NCBI GenBank assembly: GCA_947036815.1
Contig: CAMQRS010000011.1
Span: forward strand, 1 to 43,287
From: an uncultured Erysipelotrichaceae bacterium
Lineage (GTDB): Bacteria > Bacillota_I > Bacilli_A > Erysipelotrichales > Erysipelotrichaceae
Length of the DNA stretch: 43,287 bases
Reading direction: 5' to 3'
Below the pieces are notes generated by a model. The model was not told the origin of the DNA and did not search any database. It saw only the letters and a list, made by a program, of their open reading frames with translations. Shown here piece by piece: positions 1-35,017 of the stretch; the stretch's first letter is position 1, and every line of letters starts with the position of its first letter. The translations under genes and the position numbers were made by a program.

Positions 1-62
1 TTACAGCCTATTTAGTAATAGTTTTTACTCCACCAACACTAGAATTTAAAGAACCGCATAAA

Positions 63-82
63 TACGGACTTTGTACGGACTT
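63..82. repeat. Direct repeats left of attL, possible arm sites of a second element
   Basis: Two copies of tacggactt begin at 63 and 74, a period of 11 bp. The first copy starts 31 bp before the att repeat at 94. At the other prophage end the integrase-side repeats (34875 and 34886, also period 11) start 31 bp before the att repeat at 34906. The layout matches but the repeat sequence differs, as expected for arm-type sites of a different tyrosine integrase using the same tRNA target. No complete gene is visible in positions 1-62. Confidence 0.45.
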
Positions 83-93
83 GACCTTATAAA

Positions 94-153
94 ATAAAAA
101 AAAAGCCTTTAAATAAGGCTTTAACTTTAACTGGCAGGGGCGGCAGGAATTGA
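94..153. other. attL: attL (60-bp att repeat, left copy)
   Basis: This segment matches 34906-34965 over 60 bp with one difference (A at 124, T at 34936). It contains the last 20 bases of tRNA-Trp (to the encoded CCA) and the tRNA terminator hairpin. The tRNA match ends at 153, after which the sequence is phage-specific. The uninterrupted 29-bp match 125-153 is the likely crossover region. Confidence 0.9.
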
Positions 154-241
154 GATAATAACTAATTATTACAAATATAGTTGAATATCATTCGTTTTTA
201 CTGCTTATATTAAACATTAATGACCACTACTTTAATTTTTT

Positions 242-260
242 TATGCCAAAAGTATGCCAA
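242..260. repeat. Integrase arm-type direct repeats, left end
   Basis: The 19-nt string tatgccaaaagtatgccaa is repeated exactly at 34875-34893 beside attR. Each copy holds two 11-bp-period units. Matching repeats on both sides of the phage core are what tyrosine integrases use as arm-binding sites; that role is inferred from position. Confidence 0.65.
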
Positions 261-365
261 TTAAATTTATACATACTGACCATCTTATACCAAGTTACTA
301 GTTCCTGTTGGATGTACTAAGTTAGTCTAATATCTTGAAAAACATAAAAAATCATGATAAAGCAA

Positions 366-506
366 TTAACTTAATTCATTTAATAATGCCTTTTTTAACA
401 TTCTTAATTCTAATTCATCATGCCCTTTAACATATTTAAGCAATAGATCAATAGCTACAAATACTGGTATACCTAAGTGACCCAATTCTAAAATTAGTTT
501 TTCCAT
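366..506 (-). CDS. Small 46-aa protein next to attL
   Basis: ATG at 506 with a strong AGGAGG eight or nine bases upstream. The product has a hydrophobic N-terminal half (MEKLILELGHLGIPVFVAIDL, quoted in part: LGIPVFVAIDLLLKYV) and a charged helical C-terminus ending LLNELS. I recognise no family; a membrane-associated peptide is plausible. It is the last gene before attL on this strand. Its ribosome binding site lies in the 3' arm of the hairpin at 511-550, which also looks like the terminator of the preceding STAS/membrane gene pair, so translation should be poor unless that hairpin is opened or transcription starts inside it. Confidence 0.55.
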   Translation of the reverse strand: MEKLILELGHLGIPVFVAIDLLLKYVKGHDELELRMLKKALLNELS

Positions 507-550
507 AAAAAATACCTCCTACTTATACTTATACATAAGTGGGAGGTATT
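507..550 (-). terminator. Terminator hairpin overlapping an SD
   Basis: Arms 511-525 and 536-550 pair over 15 bp (one G-U) with a 10-nt loop, and on the minus strand a run of six U follows. It can end the 997-1305/558-995 operon. The 3' arm contains the AGGAGG of the 46-aa ORF that starts at 506. Confidence 0.7.
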
Positions 551-557
551 CCTTTGT

Positions 558-995
558 TTATAATTTCTCAGTTATAATTTTTTTTGTCATAGTTCCTAAA
601 TTAGAATAAATTAAAGCCTTGTTTATTATTGTTTCTTCATTCATTAAGTTGTTGGCGCATTCATCGATAACTTGTATACATTGAGTTATTTCATTGTACA
701 ATTTATTCTCATGTTCATTCAAAAAAGAACATCTGCTTTTGAAAATATGTAACACATTTGAAAATTCATTATATCGTTCTTTTGTTAAGCAATTTACAAA
801 TTGATCCGCTGATTCATAAACTTCTTTAATTAAATAATTTCCAAAGGTATTGTAATACAAATTATATAAATTTTGCTTTTTATTCATTCTTTTTTCAGCT
901 GTTTGCGTACTTTTAGCCACCCATATAGATATACCTAGTGCAATAATCGAAATAAGTGGTGATAGATCTTCAAATAGTTCCATCATGATTTTCAT
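558..995 (-). CDS. Membrane-anchored helical protein paired with STAS-like gene
   Basis: The 145-aa product has one N-terminal membrane helix (about residues 12-28, LISIIALGISIWVA) followed by a charged helical domain of about 115 residues with two cysteines (C49 region and C69 region). No family is recognised. It starts one base after the stop of the DUF4325-like gene, so the two are probably translationally coupled. The order STAS-like gene then membrane protein is the same as at 21566-20744, although the two membrane proteins do not look alike beyond N-terminal helices plus a cytoplasmic helical part. The pair has a promoter at 1336-1365 and a terminator at 507-550. Function unknown; membrane output of a switch is inference. 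Confidence 0.75.
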   Translation of the reverse strand: MKIMMELFEDLSPLISIIALGISIWVAKSTQTAEKRMNKKQNLYNLYYNTFGNYLIKEVYESADQFVNCLTKERYNEFSNVLHIFKSRCSFLNEHENKLYNEITQCIQVIDECANNLMNEETIINKALIYSNLGTMTKKIITEKL

Positions 996-996
996 A

Positions 997-1305
997 TTAA
1001 AAATTCAGCGCTCTATATAGTCGTTCTGTCAGCTCTTTATCGTTGCTTTTTAGTTCTAAAAGCTTTAAAGTATTGCTTTTCCCTATTTCGACAATCAAAG
1101 GGCTTATTAATGCTTGCACAAAAGAAATGGATGCACCCTTTAAATTATCGCAAAAAAATATTTCCACTTTTTCCTCATTACTGATCAATTCTAATAAATT
1201 CACACTCTTTAATTTAGGCTCGATATATTCTTCATAAATTTCTTGCCCATGATTCCTTCCAGTTAAAAAACCAACACTATCTTTAATATCTATATATATT
1301 TTCAT
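997..1305 (-). CDS. STAS-like (DUF4325-type) protein
   Basis: A 102-aa soluble protein. ATG at 1305 is chosen because AAGGAG lies six bases upstream; the ATG at 1308 is too close. The middle (FFCDNLKGASISFVQALISP) and the C-terminal IELKSNDKELTERL-like stretch (LLELKSNDKELTERLYRAL) parallel DUF4325 proteins, including the one at 21249-21566 (GYGSSFLEEAFGG, IDFKSNDEPEQIERL). DUF4325 is related to STAS domains of anti-anti-sigma factors. Here it lacks an adjacent ATPase and is followed at once by a membrane protein. Assignment rests on pattern similarity, so the family call is moderate. Confidence 0.6.
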   Translation of the reverse strand: MKIYIDIKDSVGFLTGRNHGQEIYEEYIEPKLKSVNLLELISNEEKVEIFFCDNLKGASISFVQALISPLIVEIGKSNTLKLLELKSNDKELTERLYRALNF

Positions 1306-1335
1306 CATTAGCTCCTTAGTAGTAACTTCATTATT

Positions 1336-1365
1336 ATTATACTATCATATAGCAATATTAATCAA
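1336..1365 (-). promoter_or_regulatory. SigA-type promoter of the left STAS/membrane pair
   Basis: Reading the minus strand, TTGATT (1360-1365), an 18-bp spacer and TATAAT (1336-1341) precede the DUF4325-like gene by about 30 bp. With the terminator at 507-550 this makes the pair a self-contained unit. Confidence 0.65.
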
Positions 1366-1401
1366 GTTATATAAATTTGAATCTTTCTAAATTATAAATC
1401 A

Positions 1402-1509
1402 TTAATATCTTGAGTTTACTAAAATTTGTATTTTGATTATTTCATCGCTTATGTATCCTTTTGTTTTTAAATTCGCAATTCTATTTTGACCATTTCCGTA
1501 TTGTCCGCC
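1402..1509 (-). pseudogene. Relic of a lysin 3' end (CW_7-type repeat)
   Basis: The minus strand encodes GGQYGNGQNRIANLK followed by a segment ending ILVNSRY and a stop. It aligns along its length with the C-terminus of the endolysin at 3472-4440 ([15 protein letters not shown] ... NLVNTKY). An in-frame stop lies just upstream of the first glycine and no start is present. The nucleotide match to the intact lysin is clear but diverged, so this is more likely the tail of a different lysin left by recombination than a recent duplication. Confidence 0.8.
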
Positions 1510-1622
1510 TTAATATATAAAAACATTTTCCTGTGTATATAATATATAGAAAGAAAAACTCCTAAAAAATAGAAATTCTTTTCAAATCACTTTATATATA
1601 CATAAGGAAGGAGGTGTAGATA

Positions 1623-1706
1623 GTGATGGGAATAATAAAAGAAGTTCTTGAAATAATAACAATGCTACTAGCAATAGCGGTTGCAATCAAAGAACTTCTG
1701 AAATAA
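1623..1706 (+). CDS. Small hydrophobic peptide, possible type I toxin
   Basis: A 27-aa ORF with a strong ribosome site (AAGGAGG, eight bases before GTG 1623; ATG follows at 1626). The peptide is MGIIKEVLEIITMLLAIAV plus AIKELLK: one membrane helix with charged ends, the form of type I toxins such as the Fst/holin-like groups. The mRNA has a 10-bp inverted repeat inside the ORF (AGAAGTTCTT 1640-1649 with AAGAACTTCT 1690-1699) and a 20-nt palindrome after it. Inhibitory folding is common in type I toxin mRNAs. I found no convincing antisense promoter, so the toxin role is inference. Confidence 0.5.
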   Translation: MMGIIKEVLEIITMLLAIAVAIKELLK

Positions 1707-1710
1707 AATT

Positions 1711-1730
1711 TAGGGGAGTTAACTCCCCTA
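1711..1730. terminator. 20-nt perfect palindrome after the small peptide
   Basis: TAGGGGAGTTAACTCCCCTA is a perfect palindrome five bases after the peptide stop. It would form a strong hairpin but lacks a U tract on either strand, so it could stabilise the mRNA or end transcription only weakly. Confidence 0.5.
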
Positions 1731-1755
1731 TCCATTATTAATATATCACTATCAT

Positions 1756-1833
1756 ATGTATATGTCAATTGGAGTTATAATAGGTATTTGCATCATTTTA
1801 TTCTTTGCATTAAAAAACAGAAAGGGAAATTAA
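1756..1833 (+). CDS. Possible 25-aa membrane peptide
   Basis: The ORF encodes MYMSIGVIIGICIILFFALK then NRKGN, a single membrane helix with a basic tail. No good ribosome site precedes either ATG (1756 or 1762). It follows the toxin-like peptide and precedes an RHH-like ORF on the same strand. Kept because of its composition and place in an island of tiny + strand ORFs; it may not be translated. Confidence 0.25.
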   Translation: MYMSIGVIIGICIILFFALKNRKGN

Positions 1834-1895
1834 TTCAGTTGGAAAATAAATTTAATCAAAAACAATATATTAACGATTAATGGTCTAAAAAAAAT

Positions 1896-2033
1896 ATGAA
1901 ATCAAGTGGTAGATATTCAAAAGATTTTGTTGATGAATTCACTGAATCTTGTAAAAAGTTAGATATTAAACCTTCTCATGTATTTAAAGAAGCTATGGAA
2001 GAAGTAATCGAAAAAGCGAATAACAGCAAATAA
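1896..2033 (+). CDS. Small ribbon-helix-helix-like protein
   Basis: The 45-aa product starts MKSSGRYSKDFVDEFTE and ends EEVIEKANNSK. A short basic N-terminal strand followed by two amphipathic helices separated by DIKPS fits the RHH DNA-binding or antitoxin pattern. The ribosome binding site is weak. It ends just before the bidirectional terminator at 2036-2065. It may regulate the two membrane peptides upstream, which is inference from position. Confidence 0.45.
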   Translation: MKSSGRYSKDFVDEFTESCKKLDIKPSHVFKEAMEEVIEKANNSK

Positions 2034-2035
2034 AA

Positions 2036-2065
2036 AAAAAACAGATAGATCACTATCTGTTTTTT
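2036..2065. terminator. Bidirectional terminator
   Basis: ACAGATAG (2041-2048), a 4-nt loop and CTATCTGT (2053-2060) are flanked by an A run on the left and a T run on the right. It can serve the RHH-like ORF on the plus strand and the Fic gene on the minus strand. Confidence 0.8.
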
Positions 2066-2105
2066 ATAACCTTTGTTTTATTAACAATTTTTCAATTAAA
2101 ACGCA

Positions 2106-3308
2106 TTACTTTGTCTCACTCAGCTTATCCAAGCATTCCAAATTAATAGAATATTTGTGTTTCCGTCCTTGCTTAACTATATTTAATGATATTTTATTAG
2201 AAACACAGTCTATCACACCTCTAATAGTTGTAGAACTTTTTGATAAAATTTTCTCTAACTCTGAAATCGTTAAGAAAGAGTCTCCGAATAATGCATTTTG
2301 GCATAGAATAAAAATTAACAACCCTTCATTGGAATCCATCTTGAAATGCTCATCTATTACTCCTTCGTAAAATTCAAGCTTTTCGTAAAGTTCTCTCAAC
2401 TTTCCTATTAAATCTCGTGTTCCTTCTAAAAGTAAATCAAGAAACATTAAAACAAAATATGTTACATCTCCTTTGTTTTTAGAATCATTACAAATATCAA
2501 ACGCTTCATAATATTTATTAATATTATTCTTAATTACATAAGATAATCTTAAAGATAATAAAATTCCAACCTCATTTCTTAATAAACCACTGCTTAAAAA
2601 TCTGCTTAGACGACCATTTCCATCATAAAAAGGATGGATATACCCAAATAAATAGTGAAAAATAGATATACGGATTATTTTATTAGAATCTCCATCATTT
2701 AAAAAGTGTAAACTCTCATCCATATAATTAATAATATTCGATTCTGGCATAACTCCCTTGTGCTTTTCTTTTTGAGTTGAAGTTAGCACCGCCACTTGTT
2801 CTTTTCTAAATATTTTTCCATCCGGCTTGTTTGAATTATTTATCTCATCTAATACTATATCGTCATAAAGTTCTCTAATTTGTGAACAAGACTCAATAGA
2901 AAAAGCACCTTCCTCAATCAATTTTATATATTTAGCAGCTAACCCTTTAAATCTAGCTTGTTTATCACTATCTTGATTATTTATTGCTGTCTCTACTTCT
3001 TTTCTTGTACTTACAACTCCCTCTATTTCATTAGTTAATGAAATCTCATCTTTCAAATATTTTGTTATTAAAAAACCGATGGCAATTCTAGGTAATTTAT
3101 ATTCCATTTCACTTATTACATTCACATTTTTAAATATTTTTTCAATTTTATTAAGCATTTCACTAGTGGGTATATAAAAAGCATCATTTTCTTTAATTTT
3201 AACAGGTATTATAATTGTTGTTTCCCCATTTTTTCTCAAAGAATAGATTCTTTCATAATCTTCTGGATTTTTATAATATATTTTAGATAATAATTTATAG
3301 GTTTCCAT
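2106..3308 (-). CDS. Fic domain protein (predicted AMP-transferase)
   Basis: A 400-aa protein with the Fic core HPFYDGNGRLSR (about residues 225-236), which in this family transfers AMP or another nucleotide moiety to hydroxyl side chains. An N-terminal TNEIEG (about 92-97) matches the inhibitory [S/T]xxxE[G/N] helix, so it resembles self-inhibited class II Fic proteins. The C-terminal 80 residues look like a winged-helix domain (LTISELEKILSKSSTTIRGV). ATG at 3308 is chosen for its AAAGGAGG seven bases upstream. A TATAAT at 3362-3367 suggests an own promoter, and a terminator follows at 2036-2065. It lies between lysin and attL, a lysogenic-conversion position. Target unknown; host modification, toxin or phage defence are all possible. 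Confidence 0.9.
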   Translation of the reverse strand: METYKLLSKIYYKNPEDYERIYSLRKNGETTIIIPVKIKENDAFYIPTSEMLNKIEKIFKNVNVISEMEYKLPRIAIGFLITKYLKDEISLTNEIEGVVSTRKEVETAINNQDSDKQARFKGLAAKYIKLIEEGAFSIESCSQIRELYDDIVLDEINNSNKPDGKIFRKEQVAVLTSTQKEKHKGVMPESNIINYMDESLHFLNDGDSNKIIRISIFHYLFGYIHPFYDGNGRLSRFLSSGLLRNEVGILLSLRLSYVIKNNINKYYEAFDICNDSKNKGDVTYFVLMFLDLLLEGTRDLIGKLRELYEKLEFYEGVIDEHFKMDSNEGLLIFILCQNALFGDSFLTISELEKILSKSSTTIRGVIDCVSNKISLNIVKQGRKHKYSINLECLDKLSETK

Positions 3309-3430
3309 ACAAAATCCTCCTTTATTCATTAAAAATCGTTTTTTTTAATAAGTCACCTTGTATTATACACTTTTTTTTATCAAAATATACCTTTTTTTAA
3401 ACATTTAAATTTAATCAAAATTTTTATCAT

Positions 3431-3471: not shown

Positions 3472-4440
3472 TTAATATTTAGTGTTTACTAAGTTTTGAA
3501 TTTTGATTATTTCATCGCTTGTGTATCCAGCTTTTTTCAAATTAACAATACGTGAAGAACCATTTCCGTATTCACCACGAAATACAGCTTTTGCCACTAC
3601 ATTATAATCCTTTTGAACCGCCGCTCCTGGAACCTTGATATTTTGTCCAGGATAAATTAATGAAGGATTCGCAATTCCATTAATTTCTGCTAAAGTTTGA
3701 TAACTCGTACCAAATAATTGCGCGATACCACTTAAAGTATCACCAGATTGTACTATATATGTAGAATTGCTAGGCATTACTGGAGGTTTGGGTTCTGGTG
3801 TAGGCGATATTGAATCCGTATTAGTACCTTTGGCGTAGTTCATCCAAGCATTTACATCGCCGTAAAATTGATTTAAGTCTAAATTTCCAGCCCATCCGTT
3901 TAATACCCCAGAACTAGTCCATTGCCACATAGCAATAGTATCCCAATGTTTTACTACAGGTGCTGTCCCAATATTTGTTATGTCATAATTGCAATCTTTA
4001 ATATTATCTCTGTATTTAGCTACCCACAATCCATAATTTTTAGCTACTGAACTCCAGTCGTGAGCGTTTGCTACTGATTCACTCATGTAGATTAATGGAC
4101 GTACACCTCCGCTTAATTCTGTAAATCTATCTAAAAATGTTTTAGCCCACATTACATCATGAATGTTTTCGGCTTCCCAGTCTAATACCATTACCGCTTT
4201 ACCGATATGATTTTTAACTGTATCGTAGAACCATTGTACTTCTAGTCCTACATCATTTACGGGTCTTGCGAAGTGATACAATCCATAAAGTGCATTTGCA
4301 CCGTTAGATGCAATATGCGCGTCCATTGATACATCTTTAAACCCTACTCCTTCAGTTGCTTTAAATATAGCAAAATCGTGTTCAATTGTTTGTAAGTTTA
4401 TTCTTGCTTGCCAATTTGCGATGTCTATTCCTTTTAACAT
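3472..4440 (-). CDS. Endolysin: GH25 muramidase with LysM and CW_7-type domains
   Basis: A 322-aa lytic enzyme predicted to cut the N-acetylmuramic acid-N-acetylglucosamine bond of peptidoglycan at host lysis. Residues 1-200 are a GH25 domain starting KGIDIANWQ with the acidic VLDWEAE motif (D87, E89). A Pro-rich linker (210-223) leads to one LysM domain (227-271, [13 protein letters not shown]) and a C-terminal CW_7-like repeat (280-320, [18 protein letters not shown]). There is no signal peptide, so release depends on the upstream holin genes. The C-terminal repeat recurs as a relic at 1402-1509. Confidence 0.95.
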
Positions 4441-20743: not shown

Positions 20744-21268
20744 TTAGTATATTTTCTTAAATATATTATCTATCCGCACCTCAATTTGACCTTGTTTATT
20801 ATTTATATCTATTAAAACCACTCTCAAAGTCTCTACATTGTCTAAGTGATTACATATCATCATATCTAATTCTTGCGTTTTATCTTTAATAAATTTGACA
20901 TCTTCTTCGATATTAACTTTTTTACTGTAATGTTCTAAAAGTGCTATCTTATTACTTATTCTTCGACTTATCATTGTATAGTCTCTTCTTTCAAAACTAT
21001 CATTAAAAAGTTCTGCATTTATTTTGCTTAATTCTCCCTGAATAATATCTAATGTCTCTTCAATTTTAACATTCAAAATACGCGTATCTGTTTTTTTTTC
21101 AACAAAATAAATAGATATAAACAGTATAGATGCAATGGTAAAGATTTCATAAAAATTCATTTTGAAAAATTTATTATTATTCATATTAATATAAAACATA
21201 CCTATTAGCATTACCACAATTATAACTATAGGTATCCGTTTTACATATTTATTTTGAAGCATCTTCAA
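20744..21268 (-). CDS. Two-helix membrane protein of the STAS/ATPase cassette
   Basis: A 174-aa protein with two membrane helices (about residues 12-29, PIVIIVVMLIGMFYI, and 40-57, EIFTIASILFISIYF) and a cytoplasmic helical domain with coiled-coil character (LDIIQGELSKINAEL, KTQELDMMICNHLDNVETLR). The gene overlaps the DUF4325 gene by 20 bp and ends the operon. No family recognised. By position it could be the membrane effector or sensor of the switch; the left-end STAS-like gene is also followed by a membrane protein. Confidence 0.8.
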   Translation of the reverse strand: MKMLQNKYVKRIPIVIIVVMLIGMFYINMNNNKFFKMNFYEIFTIASILFISIYFVEKKTDTRILNVKIEETLDIIQGELSKINAELFNDSFERRDYTMISRRISNKIALLEHYSKKVNIEEDVKFIKDKTQELDMMICNHLDNVETLRVVLIDINNKQGQIEVRIDNIFKKIY

Positions 21269-21566
21269 TATATTTTTTTAATCTTTCGATTTGTTCAGGT
21301 TCATCATTAGATTTGAAATCTATAATTTCCTTCACTATTTTTGTGGTTTTTATTCTTGCTAGTCCTCCAAAAGCCTCTTCTAAAAAAGAACTTCCATATC
21401 CGTACGTATCATCTAAATCTATTATAATTTTTTCATTAGAAGAAATCGCTGTTTCCAACAATGATTTCAAAACTTCTTCTCTAAACATTTCACCTGAAAA
21501 ATCTCCGTCTGTGTAGAACCTCCCGCCCGGAGTTTCTGTAAACTCTTTGCTAATTTTATATTTCAT
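21249..21566 (-). CDS. STAS-like protein, DUF4325
   Basis: A 105-aa protein with the DUF4325 hallmarks: KIIIDLDDTYGYGSSFLEEA (an STAS strand then the GSSFLxExFG helix) and IDFKSNDEPEQIERLKKYI. STAS domains such as SpoIIAA and RsbV bind GHKL ATPases in partner switching, and their conserved serine is the phosphorylation site. The two serines at about residues 59-60 (GSS) occupy that region. It overlaps the ATPase gene upstream by 11 bp and the membrane gene downstream by 20 bp, so all three should be made in fixed ratio. Confidence 0.85.
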   Translation of the reverse strand: MKYKISKEFTETPGGRFYTDGDFSGEMFREEVLKSLLETAISSNEKIIIDLDDTYGYGSSFLEEAFGGLARIKTTKIVKEIIDFKSNDEPEQIERLKKYIEDASK

Positions 21567-22623
21567 TCTTTGTCCTTCCTCTCTTTAAATCGTTTATATT
21601 TATTTCCCAGTAAAATAAACTTCCTAACAGCTTTTCACTTAATTCTGTAAGTATCATTTGTTCTCTATTGTCTTCATCAAATTCACATAGACACCCACCT
21701 GAAATGATTTTTAAAAATGAAGTTTTATTTTTATCTTTATAATGATTATATATCTCGGGTAACCCTTTTCCTCTATGTGACATATTTGTCCTTGTTCTTG
21801 TAGAATTCCCAGTTAACCCCGATGCAAGTAATATTGAATCTTTTTTTCTCTCATCAGTAAACTTATCTAAAACATTTATAATATAGTCATCATTTTCGTT
21901 GTCCGTCATGTCCATCGTTAATTCGTGGTCAGACATTGTTGCTGGAATACCTAGCCCAGTATCCATAAACGTATATTTTACCTTATCATTAGAATACTCT
22001 GCAAATATAAGCCATTGTTTTTTTACCGTCTCTCCTTTAGTATATGCATGTTGCCCCGTATTAGTCATCATTTCAATCAACATATCATATAAAAATTTTG
22101 TTTCTTTAAAATCCACATTAAGGTTTAAATTTGTAAAATCACAAATATTTTGAGCTAATTCAACATTTGTTTTATTTCCCATTTTCATGCTGAAATAATC
22201 ATTATTTTCTCTTTTTGCCTCTTCTTCAACATCAAAAAAGTCTGTGATTCCAGATGATAAAATAAATTCACTAATCTGTTTGTTTTCTGGACCCAATATA
22301 TTAAATTTCGGCTTATATTGGTTATTTATATTTAATGATAAAGCTACCATGTAAATTACTGCATCAATTGTAATAAAATTGATTTCACTTAAATCATATC
22401 TAATATGCAGAAAGCCTTTATAACGTCTTATGCTTAAAATTATTTGATTAAAATATTTAATAGTTTCTTTTGGATTTTCTATAAAACTAAAAATTTTAGG
22501 TGCTACAAAATTATATTTTTCATATAATTCATCGGGTACATCTGGTTTTTTTTTGTAAGACTGTCGGAGACATTCTTTTATATAATTTTTCTTATTTTCA
22601 TTTTGGCGCATTCTTTTGTTCAT
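21556..22623 (-). CDS. STAS-like/GHKL ATPase fusion
   Basis: A 355-aa protein. Residues about 65-132 look like a STAS domain (HIRYDLSEINFITIDAVIYM, FNILGPENKQISEFILSSG, GITDFFDV). Residues about 160-300 are a GHKL/HATPase domain with N box EMMTNTGQHAY (E184, N188), G1 box DTGLGIP (221-227) and G2 box RGKGLPEI (284-291). It lacks a histidine-kinase dimerisation domain and membrane segments, so it resembles anti-sigma-type serine kinases or Hsp90-like switches rather than sensor kinases. AAAGGAG precedes ATG 22623. First gene of an own transcription unit between the late regulator and HNH. A role in defence, exclusion or host reprogramming is inference. Confidence 0.85.
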   Translation of the reverse strand: MNKRMRQNENKKNYIKECLRQSYKKKPDVPDELYEKYNFVAPKIFSFIENPKETIKYFNQIILSIRRYKGFLHIRYDLSEINFITIDAVIYMVALSLNINNQYKPKFNILGPENKQISEFILSSGITDFFDVEEEAKRENNDYFSMKMGNKTNVELAQNICDFTNLNLNVDFKETKFLYDMLIEMMTNTGQHAYTKGETVKKQWLIFAEYSNDKVKYTFMDTGLGIPATMSDHELTMDMTDNENDDYIINVLDKFTDERKKDSILLASGLTGNSTRTRTNMSHRGKGLPEIYNHYKDKNKTSFLKIISGGCLCEFDEDNREQMILTELSEKLLGSLFYWEININDLKRGRTKNEI

Positions 22624-34893: not shown

Positions 34894-34905
34894 AACAAAA
34901 TAAAT

Positions 34906-34965
34906 ATAAAAAAAAAGCCTTTAAATAAGGCTTTATCTTTAACTGGCAGGGGCGGCAGGAATTGA
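34906..34965. other. attR: attR (60-bp att repeat, right copy)
   Basis: Matches 94-153 with one difference. It forms the 3' end of the intact tRNA-Trp and its terminator, so integration restored the tRNA gene. Confidence 0.9.
34908..34935 (-). terminator. tRNA-Trp terminator
   Basis: Minus-strand AAGCCTT, short loop and AAGGCTT followed by nine U, just downstream of the tRNA CCA end. The same hairpin is in attL. Confidence 0.8.
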
Positions 34966-35017
34966 ACCCGCATCAGCGGTTTTGGAGACCGTTATACTAC
35001 CATTATACTACGCCCCT
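34944..35017 (-). tRNA. trnW: tRNA-Trp (CCA anticodon)
   Basis: A 74-nt gene with acceptor arms AGGGGCG and CGCCCCT, anticodon loop CTCCAAA (anticodon CCA), TpsiC loop GGTTCAATTCC and an encoded CCA end. Its 3' part (34944-34965) is the phage att site. The gene remains intact on the right side of the prophage. Confidence 0.95.

Follow-up and report, generated by a model that had tools for sequence, protein, structure and literature searches.

A STAS-like and membrane-protein gene pair at a prophage end, possibly derived from a mobile kinase-STAS-membrane protein cassette

The DNA analyzed here, referred to as the window, is a stretch of 43,287 nucleotides from an uncultured Erysipelotrichaceae bacterium (contig CAMQRS010000011.1, assembly GCA_947036815.1). 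It contains a prophage bounded by a 63-bp direct repeat (91-153 and 34903-34965, 97%) that overlaps the 3' end of tRNA-Trp, and these bounds place two adjacent genes, hereafter the left pair (Table 1), close inside the left attachment site, in agreement with an earlier note on this DNA, which had located them at a prophage end. Positions near an attachment site, beyond the endolysin, are a usual place for accessory prophage genes.

Table 1. Coordinates of the left pair, its neighboring features, the prophage ends and the right-hand cassette
Feature	Position	Strand	Description
STAS gene	997-1308	minus	DUF4325/STAS-like protein, 103 aa
Membrane-protein gene	558-995	minus	single-pass membrane protein, 145 aa; presumed effector
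Hairpin 3' of the left pair	511-550	minus	possible (bidirectional) terminator
Promoter-like TTGATT-18-TATAAT	1336-1365	minus	upstream of the left STAS gene; 10/12 match
Endolysin 3'-end remnant	1402-1507	minus	93 bp upstream of the left STAS gene
Left attachment-site repeat	91-153	not assigned	tRNA-Trp 3' end and its terminator
tRNA-Trp	34944-35017		right prophage end
Resident endolysin gene	3472-4440		left pair sits beyond it
Type-A cassette (complete)	20744-22623	minus	ATPase 21556-22623, STAS 21249-21566, membrane protein 20744-21268

The two left genes are real. Both reading frames are open, a single base separates them, and the STAS gene has a good Shine-Dalgarno sequence, AAGGAGCTA, before its ATG; when positions 1-3000 of the window were shuffled, open reading frames of 145 codons or more turned up in 1 of 500 shuffles, and those of 103 codons or more in 15 of 500. 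The earlier note credited the pair with its own promoter and terminator. The hairpin 3' of the pair, with a 16-pair stem (scan hit on the plus strand) followed by TTTT on the minus strand, is a possible terminator and well above chance (6 terminators found by the scan versus 0.6 expected). The promoter-like site at 1365-1336 is plausible, but such matches are no commoner here than in shuffles. A small open reading frame on the minus strand (366-506, MEKLILELGHLGIPVFVAIDLLLKYVKGHDELELRMLKKALLNELS, as read by hand) has its Shine-Dalgarno sequence inside the 3' arm of the same hairpin.

Single-sequence searches with the left STAS protein gave no match in the phages, plasmids, viral_contigs and genome_contigs collections. 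When 294 genomes from the same order were searched, a single true relative emerged, in an Anaerorhabdus furcosa prophage, where the genes for an ATPase (371 aa), a STAS protein (106 aa) and a membrane protein (146 aa) follow one another; the two STAS proteins match at 34% (pairwise BLASTP, 4e-8). Further relatives were collected by means of profiles, starting from this locus, and we call the resulting family, in which intact members consist of kinase, STAS and membrane protein, type B. The triple was also found in a faecal phage record, in Lachnospiraceae and Oscillospiraceae MAGs, in IMG/VR contigs and on plasmids of Lactococcus cremoris, Enterococcus faecium and Lachnospira eligens. Among 304 genomes of the order the type-B STAS and membrane proteins are limited to the genome of the window and to A. 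furcosa. Outside the window 20 distinct loci were found, all in the order ATPase - STAS - membrane protein, with the reservation that two of the ATPases are partial frames near contig starts. One candidate (L005) and most weak matches were judged to be noise, being long unrelated frames or frames with stops, and L035 is a distant ATPase-STAS fusion. In two other distant relatives (L056, 478-1428, minus; L058, 1791-2693, plus), the membrane protein has 300-316 aa, with an extra C-terminal region; in L030 (MT837898; 2116-2560, plus), the membrane-protein frame breaks at approximately 2390, and family-like sequence seems to be continued in another frame.

Against type-B profiles from which the left proteins were excluded, the left STAS protein scores 50.6 bits (20 relatives; best of 5000 shuffles, 11.0), and the left membrane protein scores 37.5 bits (18 relatives; best of 5000 shuffles, 17.2). 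The left pair was thus recovered as type B in the tests for the STAS protein and for a membrane protein encoded directly downstream of it, and the earlier description of a STAS-like gene followed after one base by a membrane-protein gene is borne out. The Pfam model DUF4325 (PF14213) remains below threshold for the divergent left STAS protein itself (E = 0.02, 15.1 bits, cut-off 23); the link to DUF4325 is made via the family, 13 of whose 21 STAS members match the model at E<=0.01 (best, 2.3e-10).

The serine and phenylalanine that are S62-F63 in the left STAS protein are invariant in 21/21 family members, and G17 and G21 are retained as well. Two sequence patterns had been reported as shared with the right-hand STAS protein; (G)xSFxxA reduces to this family-invariant S-F, and KSND..ERL is not conserved within the family of the left protein. 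In the AlphaFold2 model (pLDDT 91), S62-F63 falls at the beginning of helix 2 (residues 61-75). Foldseek searches with this model gave no match at E<=0.001; VIA-align placed SLC26 STAS domains and SpoIIAA near the top, at Z scores of 4.4-4.8 that are close to those of ClpP. Profile searches of PDB sequences gave no match for the STAS protein or the ATPase, and no credible one for the membrane protein. The latter has an N-terminal transmembrane helix (residues ~11-29; hydropathy peak of 1.67 at residue 11), and its model (pLDDT 86) consists of helices 2-68, 72-88, 97-119 and 123-144, the C-terminal region being helical. No toxic domain was recognized in it, and structure searches matched generic helical bundles only; matches to PDC-S49 (E = 5e-5) and to proteins of ~460 aa were set aside as helical similarity.

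A complete cassette of another kind, here type A, lies farther to the right in the window. It matches DUF4325 at 7.1e-12, and its relatives L028 and L029 have the same three-gene order, carry kinases that are 60-61% identical, and occupy the same position ahead of the terminase genes. Since type-B cassettes are also found before the terminase genes (L062, L065 and L070), both types occur in the same accessory slots; the slot of the left pair, at the prophage end after the lysis genes, holds intact type-B cassettes in L084, L078 and L030. As had been pointed out, the left pair repeats the order of the last two genes of the right-hand cassette, with no ATPase adjacent. The right-hand cassette and its relatives (L028, L029 and L060) share with type B the order ATPase - STAS - membrane protein, DUF4325 and carriage by prophages; however, no homology is detectable between the ATPases or the membrane proteins of the two types, and that between the STAS proteins is remote. 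The profile alignments that the earlier note had proposed gave a split answer, with a remote likeness between the left and right STAS proteins (hhalign E = 2.8e-4, probability 41%) and no detectable homology between the membrane proteins (hhalign probability 0.2%; BLASTP E = 0.79). The type-A membrane protein scores -7.3 bits against the type-B profile, and the ATPases of the two types give no more than a weak alignment across the ATPase core (hhalign probability 1%). Because membrane proteins, ATPases and STAS proteins all diverge, the left genes are not copies of those in the right-hand cassette, and the idea of a second copy of the right-hand system gives way to that of a separate family.

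The earlier note also suggested that the left pair might use the right-hand ATPase. In that case one kinase, acting on the left STAS protein as well, would serve two switches in the prophage. Both cassettes do lie within one prophage, the right ATPase retains its DTGLG and GKGL motifs, and the left STAS protein scores highest of all tested type-B STAS proteins against the right-type profile (15.1 bits; best shuffle, 12.1), but the types are separate in all three proteins, and each family otherwise has its own kinase. With only a remote homology between the STAS proteins and none detectable between the membrane proteins, we consider such action in trans very unlikely, and the case for a ready use of this ATPase is weak. 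Matches of the right ATPase to Shiga toxin B were dismissed as chance, since they are short, lie within an ATPase and fall far short of the cut-offs.

Immediately upstream of the left STAS gene there is no ATPase or kinase gene; the endolysin remnant lies there instead, a 78-bp repeat with 82% identity to the resident endolysin's 3' end (3472-3549). A type-B ATPase was not found in the genome of the window (97.5% complete) by a search that was positive in 4 control genomes. It should be noted that some loci were found with the ATPase, and the fair count is therefore that of loci from STAS-profile searches; as all 12 distinct loci so obtained carry the ATPase, the constancy of the kinase is not due to ATPase-based searching. 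Apart from the pair in the window, none of the type-B loci found lacks the kinase. Of the readings offered earlier, that of a remnant of a related system fits best. With the endolysin remnant directly upstream, the pair seems, judging from this one junction, to have once followed an endolysin directly, with no kinase between them, and the block with the present endolysin, the Fic gene and the small open reading frames may be a later arrival.

This block contains, between the endolysin and the left pair, a gene for a Fic-domain protein (2106-3329, minus; Pfam Fic, 2.3e-13; PADLOC SoFic, 6.5e-37), and a Fic gene also adjoins a type-B cassette on an E. faecium plasmid (L072). A small hydrophobic open reading frame, MGIIKEVLEIITMLLAIAVAIKELLK (~1624-1707, plus), is accompanied by a terminator-like hairpin at 1711-1730 and, on the opposite strand, by an 11/12 promoter match at 1768-1740; this arrangement looks like a type I toxin with an antisense RNA.

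One explanation of the kinase-less state is plain decay, with the pair a non-functional leftover of a kinase deletion that persists only because the event is recent. Its being the only such case among the type-B loci found and its position beside a gene fragment (1402-1507) would agree with this, as would the long branch (1.89) and the ~9-residue insertion of the left STAS protein, which may also fit a changed use. However, neither frame is broken, the ribosome-binding site is good, a terminator-like hairpin is present, the residues S62-F63, G17 and G21 are retained, and the membrane protein still scores as a family member, and we regard decay as rather doubtful.

Recent work demonstrated control of immune operons and of a VapC toxin by kinase-STAS pairs (PMC13373217). 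By the logic of its parts, VapKSC is the nearest system described so far and consists of a CapK-like kinase (VapK), a STAS protein (VapS) and a VapC toxin (PMC13373217, EMBO J 2026); VapS binds and blocks VapC, there is evidence that phosphorylation frees VapC, and the operon protects against a phage (PMC13373217). Intact type-B cassettes resemble it in the order kinase - STAS - third gene, in a STAS protein whose invariant serine is predicted to lie where helix 2 begins, and in their defence-gene neighbors, which were seen at 7/20 type-B loci (raw count): SduA (Shedu); HsdR with a PD-T4-1-like gene; HsdRMS; AbiD twice; Drt4/AbiU/AbiLi; and a type II restriction-modification pair. They differ in that the third gene encodes a single-pass membrane protein rather than a PIN nuclease (the left pair gave no PIN match, its third-gene product being a transmembrane helix with a helical bundle), and in that the STAS protein is DUF4325-like, of ~95-105 aa, and shows no evident C-terminal inhibitory tail like that of VapS; the pair in the window differs further in having no kinase. 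The phosphorylated serine is S54 in CapS and S48 in VapS (PMC13373217), and S62 of the left STAS protein, according to its model, sits where the serine of SpoIIAA, CapS and VapS is phosphorylated. The CapK/CapS regulators of immune operons likewise combine a GHKL kinase with a STAS protein that has a conserved phospho-serine, but CapS is a transcriptional repressor with a winged helix-turn-helix (PMC13373217), whereas type-B STAS proteins have no DNA-binding domain, and their partner is a constant gene that lies downstream. SpoIIAB/SpoIIAA (RsbW/RsbV) shares the serine site and, with intact cassettes, a GHKL partner (HATPase_c_2 is weakly matched by 2/17 type-B ATPases); the likeness in STAS fold is limited to the VIA-align match of the left protein to SpoIIAA 1thn_B (Z = 4.5, 85 residues, 3.7 A), and the type-B unit has a membrane protein and no sigma factor.

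The type-B ATPases retain the Glu and Asn of the N-box (E..N) and a GGxGL box; their kinase activity is unsure, because NFS stands in place of the canonical DxGxG. PADLOC has no model for this kinase. By eye, the N-termini of the type-B ATPases seem STAS-like, as in VapK.

The reading that we favor, tentatively and as possible rather than probable, is that the left pair descends, with loss of the kinase, from a mobile cassette of GHKL ATPase/kinase, STAS protein and single-pass membrane protein that works as an inhibitor-effector switch. In the intact cassette, the STAS protein would bind the membrane protein and keep it inactive; the kinase would sense infection or damage and phosphorylate the conserved serine (S62 in the left STAS protein), and the freed membrane protein would harm the membrane and stop phage growth. 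This parallels VapK-VapS-VapC, where the effector is an RNase. As the kinase is gone, the left pair would no longer be triggerable through its own kinase, and in this prophage the STAS and membrane proteins may form a silent inhibitor-effector pair with its trigger lost; loss of the kinase with both other genes kept is what such a pair would allow. The constant three-gene order of the relatives, the missing type-B ATPase, the invariant serine, the retained ATPase boxes, the defence-gene neighbors and the recurrence of the prophage-end slot speak for this reading; the unrecognized function of the membrane protein, the NFS in place of DxGxG, and the long branch and insertion of the left STAS protein speak against it. 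Family membership, gene order, the serine, the missing kinase and the neighbors are observed, whereas binding, inhibition, phosphorylation, toxicity and defence are inferences. Alternatively, the membrane protein could be a sensor or anchor that reports envelope events to the STAS protein and the kinase, with the output elsewhere. The lack of a recognized toxic domain is consistent with this, and a transmembrane helix with a helical bundle suits a sensor too, but the cassette has no other constant output gene, and the third gene of VapKSC encodes the effector (PMC13373217); we hold a sensor role to be quite unlikely.

If the inhibitor-effector reading is kept, the type-B family would put a kinase-STAS switch on a membrane effector, in phages and on plasmids of Lactococcus, Enterococcus and Lachnospira. 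The left pair, with its kinase missing, offers a natural experiment for telling the roles of the parts from one another. Being the only case found in which the kinase is lost and both other genes are kept, it asks directly whether the STAS and membrane proteins are a self-contained inhibitor-effector unit. In a bolder version, which we consider unlikely, the pair would be a stand-alone, kinase-independent unit of STAS inhibitor and membrane toxin (a two-gene toxin-antitoxin system, or a means of immunity to intact cassettes that enter the cell). Its source would be an antiphage family, so far undescribed, whose membrane effector is controlled by a GHKL kinase together with a STAS protein. In Francisella phage KIRK, Fhv_0046-0048 (PMC7924643) encode consecutively, next to CI, a 293-aa protein, a DUF4325 protein and a transmembrane protein, possibly another ATPase-STAS-membrane protein cassette, outside Firmicutes.
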